This document shows, piece by piece, positions 7,708-34,419 of a DNA stretch of 64,000 bases. Under the pieces are notes generated by a model. It worked only from the letters and a program-made list of their open reading frames with translations. It was not told the DNA's origin and ran no database searches. The stretch comes from Haloarchaeobius salinus. GTDB lineage: Archaea; Halobacteriota; Halobacteria; Halobacteriales; Natrialbaceae. The translations under genes and the position numbers were made by a program. Location of the stretch: assembly GCF_024464185.1 (NCBI RefSeq), contig NZ_JANHAU010000001.1, forward strand, positions 248,001-312,000, read 5' to 3'. Positions within the stretch are counted from its first letter, which is position 1, and every line of letters starts with the position of its first letter.

Positions 7708-8259
7708 TCAGAGCTCGGGCTTCCAGTCGTCGATGCGCTCGGCGTACGGGACGAACTTCTCGTGGGAGTCGTGCTTGAACACGCCCAGGATGGTCCCGTC
7801 GAGCTTCTGGACGTACGTGTAGAACTCGCCCGCGTCCTCGGCGTCGTGGACCATGCCGGGGGCGTGGCGCAGCTCGTACTGCGCGGCGACGAACACCGCC
7901 GTCTCCGTCTCCGGGTCGCGGTACTCCACGACGAGGAACACGTTCCCGTCGACCTCGCGACGGAACACCTCGTACTCGGGGAACTCCTTGTCGCCGAACA
8001 CCTCGGTGAACTCCTCGCCGTGGTTCTTGGGGACCACGAACACCAGCCCGAAGCGGTCGTCGTCGCCCGCCTCGCGGTGCTGGGTCCCGGTGCTGCCGGC
8101 CATCATCGTGACCGTCTCCCAGCCCTCGTCCTCGCGCTCGTCCGCCAGCGCCTCCATGTCCTCGAGTGCGCCCTGCCAGGCTGACTTGAGGACCTCGGCG
8201 TTGTTCGTGATTCGGTCGACGTACTCGTCGTCGTGTTCACTGTCGGGGACGTCCGGCAT
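7708..8259 (-). CDS. Uncharacterised acidic haloarchaeal protein
   Basis: From the ATG at 8259 the product is 183 residues long and strongly acidic. It starts MPDVPDSEHDDEYVDRITNN and has a helical N-terminal third, then alternating strands (RFGLVFVVPKN, NVFLVVEYRDPETETAVFVA). There is no signal peptide, membrane segment or catalytic motif. An upstream extension of the frame exists, but its Arg- and His-rich sequence is unlike the rest, so the shorter start is used. I do not recognise its function. It lies at the end of the minus-strand block that includes the peptide importer, but a 60-base gap suggests separate expression. Confidence 0.75.
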   Translation of the reverse strand: MPDVPDSEHDDEYVDRITNNAEVLKSAWQGALEDMEALADEREDEGWETVTMMAGSTGTQHREAGDDDRFGLVFVVPKNHGEEFTEVFGDKEFPEYEVFRREVDGNVFLVVEYRDPETETAVFVAAQYELRHAPGMVHDAEDAGEFYTYVQKLDGTILGVFKHDSHEKFVPYAERIDDWKPEL

Positions 8260-31003: not shown

Positions 31004-31918
31004 ATGGCGAAAGTTAGCGTAGTCGGCGCGGCCGGCACCGTCGGTGCCGCCGCAGGCTACAACCTCGCGCTTCGTGACGTGGTCGACGAGCTCGTCTTCG
31101 TGGACATCCCGGACCAGGAGGACGTGACGGTCGGACAGGCCGCGGACACCAACCACGGTATCGCATACGACTCGAACACGTCGGTCCGCCAGGGCACGTA
31201 CGCCGACACGGCCGGCTCGGACGTCGTCGTCATCACGGCGGGCATCCCGCGCCAGCCCGGCCAGACCCGCATCGACCTCGCGGGCGACAACGCGCCCATC
31301 ATGGAGGACATCGGTTCCTCGCTGGCCGAGCACAACGACGACTTCATCACCGTGACGACGTCGAACCCGGTCGACCTGCTCAACCGTCACCTGTACGAGG
31401 TCGGCGACCGCGACCGGAACCAGGTCATCGGCTTCGGTGGCCGACTCGACTCCGCGCGCTTCCGCTACGTGCTCTCCGAGCGCTTCGATACGCAGGTCCA
31501 GAACGTCGAGGCGACCATCCTGGGCGAGCACGGCGACGCGCAGGTCCCCGTGTTCTCGAAGGTCCGCGTCGACGGTGCGGACCCCGAGTTCAGCGACGAC
31601 GAGAAGGAGGAGATCCTCGGCGACCTGAAGGAGTCCGCGATGAACGTCATCGAGCGCAAGGGCGCGACCGAGTGGGGCCCGGCGACGGGCGTCGCCCACA
31701 TGGTCGAGGCCATCCTGCACGACACCGGCGAGGTGCTGCCGGCGTCGGTCAAGCTCCAGGGCGAGTTCGGCCACGACGACGTGGGTCTCGGCGTCCCCGT
31801 CAAGCTCGGCAGTGACGGCGTCGAGGAGATCGTCGAGTGGGACCTCTCCGAGTTCGAGCGCGACCAGCTCGGTGAGGCCGCCGACAAGCTCTCCGAACAG
31901 TACGAGAAGATCGCGTAA
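31004..31918 (+). CDS. mdh: Malate dehydrogenase (LDH-like, halophilic type)
   Basis: The 304-residue enzyme has the length and sequence style of halophilic tetrameric malate dehydrogenase. The NAD-binding loop is [15 protein letters not shown]. The substrate loop reads [13 protein letters not shown], with Arg in the position that favours malate over lactate. The catalytic His is in [16 protein letters not shown], and SNPVDLL is conserved. It oxidises malate to oxaloacetate in the citric acid cycle. The upstream in-frame extension is ignored because the protein starts cleanly at [11 protein letters not shown]. The acidic surface (for example [11 protein letters not shown]) is a halophilic trait. 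Confidence 0.97.
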
Positions 31919-31926
31919 CTCGGTTC

Positions 31927-32067
31927 CTACGTCGGTTCGTCGCCGTCACGCTGCGACGGCGGTCCGGCGACCTCGACGCGTGCGGAACGTGCCTGTGCCT
32001 CCGATACCCGAACGTCGAGCAGTTCCGCCCACTCGCGGAGACGAGCGGTGTAGTCGTCGGTCGACAT
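31927..32067 (-). CDS. 46-residue protein of unknown function
   Basis: A 46-codon frame starts at the ATG complementary to 32065-32067 and ends near the mdh stop. The product begins MSTDDYTARLREWAELLDVR and is a charged helix with a disordered tail (GPPSQRDGDEPT). There is no membrane segment. An inverted repeat covers its -3 to -33 region, where the TATA box would be expected, which supports real and regulated transcription. It follows the Bat-type regulator on the same strand. Confidence 0.55.
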   Translation of the reverse strand: MSTDDYTARLREWAELLDVRVSEAQARSARVEVAGPPSQRDGDEPT

Positions 32068-32069
32068 GG

Positions 32070-32100
32070 TTATGAGATGCATCGACACGAAATCTCATAA
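32070..32100. promoter_or_regulatory. Inverted repeat, probable operator/promoter of the 46-residue gene
   Basis: TTATGAGAT (32070-32078) and ATCTCATAA (32092-32100) are perfect 9-base inverted arms around a 13-base spacer. In minus-strand reading the distal arm occupies the expected TATA position and the near arm ends 3 bases before the ATG at 32067. The centre-to-centre distance is 22 bases, about two helical turns, which suits a dimeric DNA-binding protein. Confidence 0.5.
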
Positions 32101-32139
32101 CTGTTGTCCCGGGACTGTCCGGCCGGCCGCGGGCCGTGC

Positions 32140-34119
32140 TCAGGGTCGGTCGAAGAACTCGCCGACCAGCTTGCGCTCGGCCGCCCGGAGGTGCTGGTGG
32201 TACGTCGAGCGGGCGATACCCATCGACTCGGCGAGGTCGTCCCCGCTCGTCGGACGGGGCCACTCGAAGAAGTCCCCGAAGTAGGCCCGCTGGAGCGCGG
32301 TGAGCTGGCGGTCGGTCAGCTCCTCCTCCAGCGCGGCGATGAACTCCTGTTTCGTCGTCGCGGCCCGCTGGCGCTCGCGGTACGCCCCGAGACTGACGCC
32401 GTCGAACGCCTGCTCGACGTTGTCGACGACTGTCCGGGCGTTGGCCTCCCGGGGGAGTTCCACCTCGACGGTCGTCGTCTCCGGCGACGCCTCGATGTCG
32501 GTCACGTCGCCACCGTACTCCGCGAGCGTCGACAGCAGCCCGGAGCTGCCGATACTGAACTCGACGAGCGAGACGCCCTCGTTCCGGGTGATGACCTTCG
32601 CCGCGGCCACGTCGTCGTGTCCCTCGGCGATCTCGACGACATCGTCGGGGTCCTCGGACTCGACGGTGAAGAACATCCCGAGCGTGTCGTCGTCGCGGTA
32701 CACCGAGCCCGCGTACGACAGCGTCGCGTCCGCACGCTGGGCAACGTCGACGAAGAACACCGACGGGTCGTCGACGTGGAACGAGAGCTCCACGATGTCG
32801 TCGGCCGTCAGCGTGCGGCGCGTCTCCGCCGCCGACACCGCCGTCGCGACCATCCGGCCGAGCGCGGCGAGGATGGCGGCCTCGCGCTCGTCCAGCGCCG
32901 CCGCGTCGGAGGTGTACACCGTCAGCACGCCGTAGCGGGCGTCCCGGTACACCAGCGGGATGACCGCCAGGCTCTCGAACGGCTCGTCCGTCCGTGCCTC
33001 GTGCCAGTCCACCGTCGGCAGCTCGTCGACGGAGGCGACCTGCACCTCGCCGGTCTCGATGGCGCGGGCGACTGGACCGTCGCTCCGACTGAGTTCCAGC
33101 GGTTCGCCCTCCTCGCTCCCGCCGACGATGACGGTCGGGCGGATGCTGTCGTCGGCCAGGTCCGGCTCGCCGACCCACGCGCAGGTGTACGGGTCGGTGT
33201 CCGCGAGCAGCTCGGTGACGTTCCGCTCGATGCTCGCCCGGGTCGTCGACTCGACCAGCGCCCGCGTCGTCTCCTGGACGACGCCGTTCACCCGGTCGAG
33301 CAGGTGCTCGAGCCCCGCACGCTCGGTGTCGAGCATCGCGGCGCGGTGCTCGGCCGTGCGCTCGGCCTCCACGCGGTCGGTCACGTCGGTCTGGAACCCC
33401 ACGAAGTGTGTCACCTCGCCCGCCTCGTCCCCGACCGGCGCGATGTCCACCCGGTTCCAGAACCGCTCGCCCTCGTCCGTGTAGTTCACCAGCTCGACCG
33501 ACTCGGGCTCCTCGTTCTCGATCGCCTCGCGCATCGCCCGGACGGCCTCGGGGTCGGAGTCCTCGCCCTGGAGGAACCGGCAGTTCCGGCCGATGGCTTC
33601 CCCGCGCTCGTAGCCCGTGAGCCGGACGAACGACTCGTTGACGTAGATGAGCGGCGTGTCCGGTGCGGTCGCGTCCGCGATGGTGATGCCGACCGGGGCC
33701 TCGTCGAGTGCCCGCTCCTTCAGCCGGTCGGTACCCGTCCCCGCGTCGATGCACGCGCTGACGCGCTCGCGCAGTCGGTCCTCCCAGTTCCCGGTCCCTC
33801 GTCGTACGTAGCCGTCGACCCCCGCCGCGACTGCCTGCTCGGCCACCCGCTCGCTGCCGACCGCCGTACACAGCACGACCGGCACCCGGCCGTGGACCGC
33901 CCGGATGGTCTCCAGCAGCTCCAGCCCGGTCGCCTCGCCGAGGTCGTGCTCGCTCACGACACAGTCCGGCACCGCGCGCCCGATGGCCGAGAGTGCCTCG
34001 CCGTCGCTCTCGGCGACCTCGACCTGCACGTCGTCCCCAAGCGCCGTCAGTACAGCCGCCGTCTCCGCGGCCCGGTCCTCGTCGCCGTCGACGACGAGGA
34101 TCCGGGGCATCGCACTCAT
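32140..34119 (-). CDS. Bat-type transcription regulator with receiver, LOV, GAF and HTH_10 domains
   Basis: The 659-residue protein has a receiver domain (about 5-125), a PAS domain of LOV type (about 140-260), a GAF domain (about 280-440) and the bacterioopsin-activator fold ending in an HTH_10 helix-turn-helix (about 600-655, LAESMGIARSTYHQHLRAAE). The LOV part has the photoactive motif GRNCRFLQ with Cys180 and the other flavin contacts (VELVNY, FWNRVDIAPV, FVGFQTDVT). In the receiver the usual acceptor Asp is Glu (VVSEHDLGE), and the conserved Lys appears as Arg (YVRRGT). It probably controls genes in response to blue light or redox. A 46-residue gene with an inverted repeat lies downstream. 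Confidence 0.9.
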   Translation of the reverse strand: MSAMPRILVVDGDEDRAAETAAVLTALGDDVQVEVAESDGEALSAIGRAVPDCVVSEHDLGEATGLELLETIRAVHGRVPVVLCTAVGSERVAEQAVAAGVDGYVRRGTGNWEDRLRERVSACIDAGTGTDRLKERALDEAPVGITIADATAPDTPLIYVNESFVRLTGYERGEAIGRNCRFLQGEDSDPEAVRAMREAIENEEPESVELVNYTDEGERFWNRVDIAPVGDEAGEVTHFVGFQTDVTDRVEAERTAEHRAAMLDTERAGLEHLLDRVNGVVQETTRALVESTTRASIERNVTELLADTDPYTCAWVGEPDLADDSIRPTVIVGGSEEGEPLELSRSDGPVARAIETGEVQVASVDELPTVDWHEARTDEPFESLAVIPLVYRDARYGVLTVYTSDAAALDEREAAILAALGRMVATAVSAAETRRTLTADDIVELSFHVDDPSVFFVDVAQRADATLSYAGSVYRDDDTLGMFFTVESEDPDDVVEIAEGHDDVAAAKVITRNEGVSLVEFSIGSSGLLSTLAEYGGDVTDIEASPETTTVEVELPREANARTVVDNVEQAFDGVSLGAYRERQRAATTKQEFIAALEEELTDRQLTALQRAYFGDFFEWPRPTSGDDLAESMGIARSTYHQHLRAAERKLVGEFFDRP

Positions 34120-34170
34120 GTATACCCGTATCGGGCTCCCACCCTAAAGTACTTGTCAGTCTTTCGCACG

Positions 34171-34419
34171 CTACGGGATCAGCTGTTCGCCGTCGTCGTC
34201 GTACACGACGATGGCGTCGACCGGACACGACCGCGCCGCGAACTTCGCGTCCAGCTCCTCGCCCTCGGGTACCTCGACGGCGAACACGTCCTCGGCGATC
34301 TCCTCGCCCCCGACGAGGTCCGCCTTCCCGTCGTCCGTGTCCTTCTCGAAGCCCTCGCCCCACTCCGCCACGCACTGGAACATCCCGATGCAGGTGTCCC
34401 GGTCGAACTCGACTCGCAT
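34171..34419 (-). CDS. Ferredoxin, probably [3Fe-4S]
   Basis: The 82-residue acidic protein has Cys10, Cys16 and Cys65 in the order of a single-cluster ferredoxin (TCIGMFQC ... SCPVDAI). The second position of the usual CxxCxxC set is Met13, so only three Cys ligands remain, which fits a [3Fe-4S] cluster as in ferredoxins that feed cytochrome P450s. It should carry electrons in the cytoplasm. No P450 or reductase gene lies in the window, so its partner is unknown. The long upstream extension of the frame is not used because MRVEFDRDTC is the normal start. Confidence 0.85.
   Translation of the reverse strand: MRVEFDRDTCIGMFQCVAEWGEGFEKDTDDGKADLVGGEEIAEDVFAVEVPEGEELDAKFAARSCPVDAIVVYDDDGEQLIP

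Follow-up and report, generated by a model that had tools for sequence, protein, structure and literature searches.

In the 64,000-nucleotide stretch of Haloarchaeobius salinus DNA analysed here (the window), one gene raises the question of whether a single archaeal protein could both perceive blue light and act on transcription, and what it would control in a genome without bop. The open reading frame runs on the minus strand (34119..32140), encodes 659 amino acids from an ATG start, and is a real gene with orthologues in all six genomes of the genus; its nearest named relatives, from Haloarchaeobius iranensis and Haloarchaeobius sp. FL176, are 90% identical over the full length. The sequence-only reading had proposed a complete LOV domain with Cys180 in a Bat-type regulator, with a GAF domain in between, and both parts of this description, including the numbering of the cysteine, were borne out. 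Five Pfam matches, all exceeding the curated cut-offs, give the order receiver, LOV, GAF, BAT and HTH_10, and we refer to the gene (32140..34119, minus strand) as LOV-Bat. On the same strand, the receiver-like domain (Response_reg) covers residues 7-106 (33802..34101), the LOV (PAS) domain residues 134-258 (33346..33720), of which Pfam PAS_9 takes up 142-248, and the GAF domain (GAF_2) residues 293-428 (32836..33243), after LOV and before BAT. The Bat-type C-terminus was confirmed by the BAT domain at residues 440-593 (32341..32802; E 1.8e-40, 138.7 bits against a cut-off of 25.8) and the DNA-binding HTH_10 domain at residues 601-652 (32164..32319; E 2.1e-17, 63.1 bits against 23.1). In the alignment of 32 relatives, the receiver position at which a phospho-acceptor Asp is usual is variable, and in LOV-Bat it is Glu57, so that the usual phosphorylation is probably absent from this receiver. 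Because the conserved Asp is missing, control through receiver phosphorylation was judged unlikely.

The LOV assignment rests on Pfam, PDB matches, an alignment with Bacillus subtilis YtvA and a structural model. The motifs GRNCRFLQ, VELVNY, FWN and FVGFQTD are all present, and Cys180, at which the flavin adduct is expected to form (codon 33580..33582, minus strand), aligns with YtvA Cys62. All ten LOV residues listed in PMC4682037 were kept, namely the equivalents of YtvA G59, N61, C62, R63, F64, L65, Q66, N94, N104 and Q123. The top PDB sequence matches were LOV domains or LOV fusions (E 4e-35 and weaker), and the closest NCBIfam stretches belonged to LOV photoreceptors, among them the YtvA family (1.6e-43), with scores under the whole-protein cut-offs. 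Modelling of residues 125-290 (mean pLDDT 80.7) confirmed the PAS/LOV fold, with a Z of 16.1 and an rmsd of 1.8 over 107 residues against phototropin LOV1. In the full-length AlphaFold2 model, a continuous helix of residues 247-290 (33250..33381, minus strand) joins LOV to GAF; this model is weak, with a pLDDT of 44-60 in the first half of LOV and a pTM of 0.36, and its domain arrangement is not interpretable. A chance or frame artefact as the origin of the LOV motif was ruled out by the Pfam, PDB and YtvA comparisons, since the best PDB matches are LOV domains and the model fits LOV structures with a Z of about 16. Judged from these residues and the predicted fold, the blue-light sensor of LOV-Bat is apparently intact. 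Three more proteins of the window genome combine a Cys-bearing LOV domain with what look by eye like histidine-kinase parts, thus blue-light sensing would not be limited to LOV-Bat. Elsewhere in this genome (L084, 1501-1857), a LOV-like domain carries a motif degraded to GRDWLFLEG.

What such a sensor might control is suggested by the neighbourhood of the gene. The genomic context, which like the strand was missing from the sequence-only reading, is the most informative part of the analysis. In H. iranensis (G009), FL176 (G037) and a third sister genome (G056), the order on one strand is bat-bop-crtY-brp, followed by mdh, whereas in the window genome (G000) and in G062 bop, crtY and brp are all absent and the locus is otherwise intact. 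Bat therefore adjoins bop in the orthologous loci of three sister genomes and has no such neighbour in the bop-less window genome. The deletion starts directly past the bat stop and ends at about the brp stop, and leaves a 72-bp scar (32068..32139) that separates the bat stop from a small ORF; the scar holds no UAS-like sites, and the three sister genomes carry at this position the ~2.8-2.9 kb of bop-crtY-brp with UAS-like sites. The small ORF (46 aa; 31927..32067, minus strand) marks the right-hand junction; it is 98-100% identical in G062, G037 and G009 and gave no Pfam match. A conserved TTATGA...GATGCATC..CATAACC stretch precedes it. The right synteny anchor is the lactate/malate dehydrogenase-family gene mdh (31004..31918, plus strand; Ldh_1_N, Ldh_1_C), the position of which is identical across all genomes of the genus. 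On the other side, the stretch upstream of bat (34120..34170, minus strand) contains CTTTAGGGTGGGA, conserved in G000, G062, G037 and G009, and is likely the promoter of bat itself. It is followed by a single-cluster ferredoxin gene (34171..34419, minus strand; Fer4_15), which adjoins bat throughout the genus and in Halorubellus and lies close to bat in a distant MAG (L052). Judged from synteny, this ferredoxin could be a functional partner of LOV-Bat, or its position could be due to chance.

The product of bop in the sister genomes matches solved proton pumps (cruxrhodopsin-3, deltarhodopsin and bacteriorhodopsin), and its helix-C sequence, RYADWLFTTPLLLLDLALL, is by eye what we take to be typical of proton pumps. 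The Pfam matches of crtY and brp are Lycopene_cyc and BCD (beta-carotene dioxygenase), respectively. Searches for rhodopsin and Brp/Blh (BCD) genes found none in G000 or G062, and the same searches succeeded in the sister genomes. In G061 (L122) bop alone is missing, bat-crtY-brp is kept, and a rhodopsin is encoded elsewhere in the genome; this arrangement represents an intermediate stage in the decay of the operon. The tree built from four neighbouring genes gave the groups (G000,G062), (G037,G009) and (G056,G061), with a support of 0.996 for each of the first two. Since G000 and G062 pair in this tree, a single loss explains both, and one deletion before their split is the simplest history. 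In the distant MAG L052, the Bat of which is 46% identical, bat-bop is found close to the same ferredoxin, Hel308 and Cgi121 genes, thus the bat-bop linkage is older than the genus. In Halorubellus, bop is absent at the orthologous site. Besides this bop-less orthologue, one Halorubellus genome (G006) has another, divergent LOV-Bat at a different locus (L118, 6852-11414), with bop-crtY-brp following it. Given this context, the window genome holds a putative orphaned bacteriorhodopsin activator.

Rhodopsin genes similar to the bop of the genus were taken from relatives and from a sample that spans the class, and the flanking DNA was searched for Bat with the window protein as the query, so that very divergent Bats may have escaped detection. 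Within 4 kb of bop, the bop-anchored set contained 33 Bats, with Cys at the LOV position in 22, Pro in 8 and His in 3. Leaving out one row that is identical to another locus gives 32 Bats (21 Cys, 8 Pro and 3 His), and adding the loci retrieved with the window protein as the query gives 42 (31 Cys, 8 Pro and 3 His). Where Bat and bop shared a strand and Bat lay directly upstream, it was the Cys form in 22 of the 23 cases. The N, N and Q positions of the signature were kept in all sampled bop-linked Bats, save for one replacement of N by Q. The Cys-less Bats formed two groups on a quick tree (SH-aLRT support), in which the deep forks are not firm. All Pro-type Bats came from one family (f5), which agrees with the Pro form that Yee et al. 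studied in Halorubrum. The expectation that most Bat-like regulators lack the cysteine thus held within the window genome, where one of the 14 BAT-domain proteins above the cut-off has a LOV domain, but not for Bats that adjoin bop (Cys in 22 of 33). At one further locus (L201 of G039), two apparently identical bop genes lie in tandem near 8154 and 10054, ~1.9 kb apart, and no Bat was found nearby.

The sequence ahead of bop offers a candidate site for the regulator. In all three bop-bearing species of the genus, AACTAGTTCGG is found 38 bp ahead of the bop start, and a CCCAACYAGTTNGG-like repeat recurs several times in the bat-bop spacers of G037 and G009. The motif AACTAGTTNGG was derived from the genus and then tested on other families. 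With at most one mismatch, it was present at 21 of the 30 bop genes with a Cys-type Bat, at 5 of the 40 without a Bat and at none of the 11 with a Pro or His Bat; the Fisher test for the first two groups gave 1e-6. In the bop-anchored subset, the corresponding counts were 14/22, 5/39 and 0/11 (p 9e-5 for the first two). Most sites lay between -35 and -44 of bop. The motif resembles the ACTAGTT core that we take to be that of the H. salinarum bop UAS. Adjacency and motif co-occurrence make AACTAGTTNGG a likely, if putative, binding site of LOV-Bat, and bop would most likely be its target operon in the relatives. Genome-wide, the exact pattern occurs one to five times per genome of the genus. 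A one-mismatch scan with CNAACYAGTTNGG returned about 70-90 hits in each genome; many of these looked coding, and the scan was dropped. In the window genome, the exact scan revealed no conserved target site; the one exact match there (C2:452566) does not correspond to any of the sites in the relatives and was treated as chance. In G037 and G009 (L253 and L261), a second conserved AACTAGTTNGG-type site lies near 1500, upstream of a small membrane-protein-like ORF, and could possibly mark a further Bat target.

For LOV-Bat we infer flavin binding and a photocycle, a DNA site, activation and light-dependent transcription, as well as its present targets. Blue light would lead to an adduct between Cys180 and the flavin, the resulting change would travel along the helix of residues 247-290 to GAF and BAT, and DNA binding or dimerisation of the HTH_10 end would be altered. 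The ancestral LOV-Bat would have switched on the downstream bop-crtY-brp, probably through the AACTAGTTNGG site that lies ~38 bp ahead of bop. The genes for the pump, the lycopene cyclase and retinal formation would later have been deleted in the ancestor that the window species shares with G062, and the regulator left behind. That LOV-Bat is a one-component flavin blue-light receptor and activator, which once drove bop-crtY-brp and is now an orphan, is in our view probable. We are more doubtful of a wider version, possible as it is, in which a Cys-type LOV-Bat, as a direct blue-light receptor acting at AACTAGTTNGG near -38, would be the commoner haloarchaeal bop activator, the Cys-less forms would be derived, and the window species would have retained its LOV-Bat through the loss of all retinal proteins and redirected it to new targets. 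As for the one-protein blue-light switch of transcription put forward in the sequence-only reading, it is partly supported as the best reading of the sequence, given the intact signature, the LOV-GAF helix and the receiver without Asp; its kind has been reported before.

The LOV domain shows a change in its substitutions. If there was a single loss, the divergence between the G000 and G062 bat genes all postdates the deletion. In this orphan pair the LOV domain has 24 nonsynonymous and 24 synonymous substitutions, versus 1 and 19 in the pump-bearing pair G009/G037 (Fisher 3e-4, or ~1e-3 once four domains are allowed for), whereas receiver, GAF and BAT+HTH did not differ between the pairs. The pattern indicates a LOV sensor that is freed or retuned, not neutral, and a DNA-binding end that is constrained as before. 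The raised LOV change could mean that light sensing is decaying, not being retuned. This is what one would see if the sensor were decaying now that the operon is gone, with LOV-Bat persisting as a constitutive or redox regulator, or only briefly in evolutionary time, an account to which the lack of a conserved target site in the exact scan of the window genome also lends weight. We nevertheless consider it rather unlikely, since the dN/dS of the orphan pair is still about 0.29 for LOV and about 0.08 for BAT+HTH, neither orphan species has lost any of the ten signature residues, and LOV-Bat contains neither frameshift nor stop. The orphan LOV-Bat is still under purifying selection and therefore probably serves other targets.

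The role of the cysteine itself can also be read differently. LOV-Bat might mainly be a flavin sensor of redox state or oxygen, in which Cys only tunes the response and the effect of blue light is a side effect. H. salinarum Bat, which has no such Cys, induces bop both in light and when oxygen is low (PMC3184054, PMC4844311), reduction of the flavin elicits a response in a Cys-less BAT-LOV (PMC4682037), and Cys, Pro and His forms all adjoin bop. Against this, the cysteine and the whole LOV signature have been kept in 22 of the 33 bop-linked Bats, and an archaeal LOV domain with the adduct Cys photocycles normally (PMC12202551), and we regard a sensor of this type as unlikely. A different history is that the ancestor of the window species never had bop-crtY-brp, that G009/G037 and G056 acquired the cluster independently, and that the role of LOV-Bat was always another one. 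At this site Halorubellus, the next genus out, carries bat-mdh but no bop, so that a gain inside the genus followed by later losses is conceivable. Separate gains are nevertheless quite improbable, as the site and order of the cluster are identical in G056 and G009/G037, G061 keeps crtY-brp at the site without bop, and the distant MAG has bat-bop near the same three neighbours. Loss of the operon from beside a putatively light-responsive LOV-Bat thus is the reading that we prefer.

The reactive Cys is missing from the Bats that have been studied to date, and most sampled bop-linked Bats have a complete LOV signature. Cys-type Bats together with one promoter site would form a simple natural test system of one photoreceptor, one site and one operon. 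The window genome would be the natural knock-out of the target, in which a light-sensing regulator has outlasted its pump, and the orphan LOV-Bat allows one to ask which other genes it controls and how fast a photosensor drifts without its output. A salt-stable one-protein light switch could, in addition, serve as a genetic tool for haloarchaea.

Among known proteins that combine LOV and HTH, EL222 of Erythrobacter litoralis has another type of HTH, is much smaller, and contains neither GAF nor BAT, and its effector part is unrelated to that of LOV-Bat. It is alike in outline, as one protein in which blue light leads to DNA binding (PMC4844311). The domain order REC-PAS-GAF-BAT-HTH_10 is typical of Halobacteria (Galperin et al., PMC5847659). 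H. salinarum Bat likewise has PAS, GAF and a C-terminal HTH and is encoded in the bop cluster; it acts in light and at low oxygen (PMC3184054, PMC1447603), and its receiver is divergent (PMC5847659). It has no reactive Cys (PMC4844311), whereas LOV-Bat has Cys180, yet in a genome without bop. The Halorubrum BAT-LOV of Yee et al. (2015) shares the domain set and the flavin-binding LOV-like domain; with Pro in place of Cys it binds flavin, responds to reduction and photoreduces poorly, in contrast to the Cys180 form of the window (PMC4682037). Direct light sensing by Bat has been suggested, not established (PMC4682037). Valle et al. (2025) described a haloarchaeal LOV domain with a normal photocycle in high salt, ALovD-1 of Halonotius, which like LOV-Bat has the adduct Cys and photocycles in up to 3 M salt, but comes from a histidine kinase and not from a DNA-binding protein (PMC12202551). 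The survey of Losi et al. (2014) reports 167 archaeal LOV proteins, an HTH domain in about 30% of the halobacterial ones, and the order receiver/GAF/PAS, LOV, PAS, GAF and HTH, and points out the resemblance of LOV-HTH proteins to Bat (PMC4844311). LOV-Bat fits this halobacterial type, with receiver, LOV, GAF and HTH in the same order and the canonical Cys; the survey covers architecture and a LOV tree, and the section consulted makes no mention of a link between the Cys-bearing proteins and bop operons, of the promoter site or of an orphaned copy (PMC4844311). In our literature search, with most subscription journals outside its coverage, we found no paper that states the orphaned-regulator or Cys-Bat/bop/site links. 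In view of the reports by Losi, Galperin, Yee and Valle, the window LOV-Bat therefore belongs to an already known kind: haloarchaeal LOV-HTH proteins had been described, and what is added here is the orphaned regulator and the association of the Cys-type LOV-Bat with bop and the promoter site.
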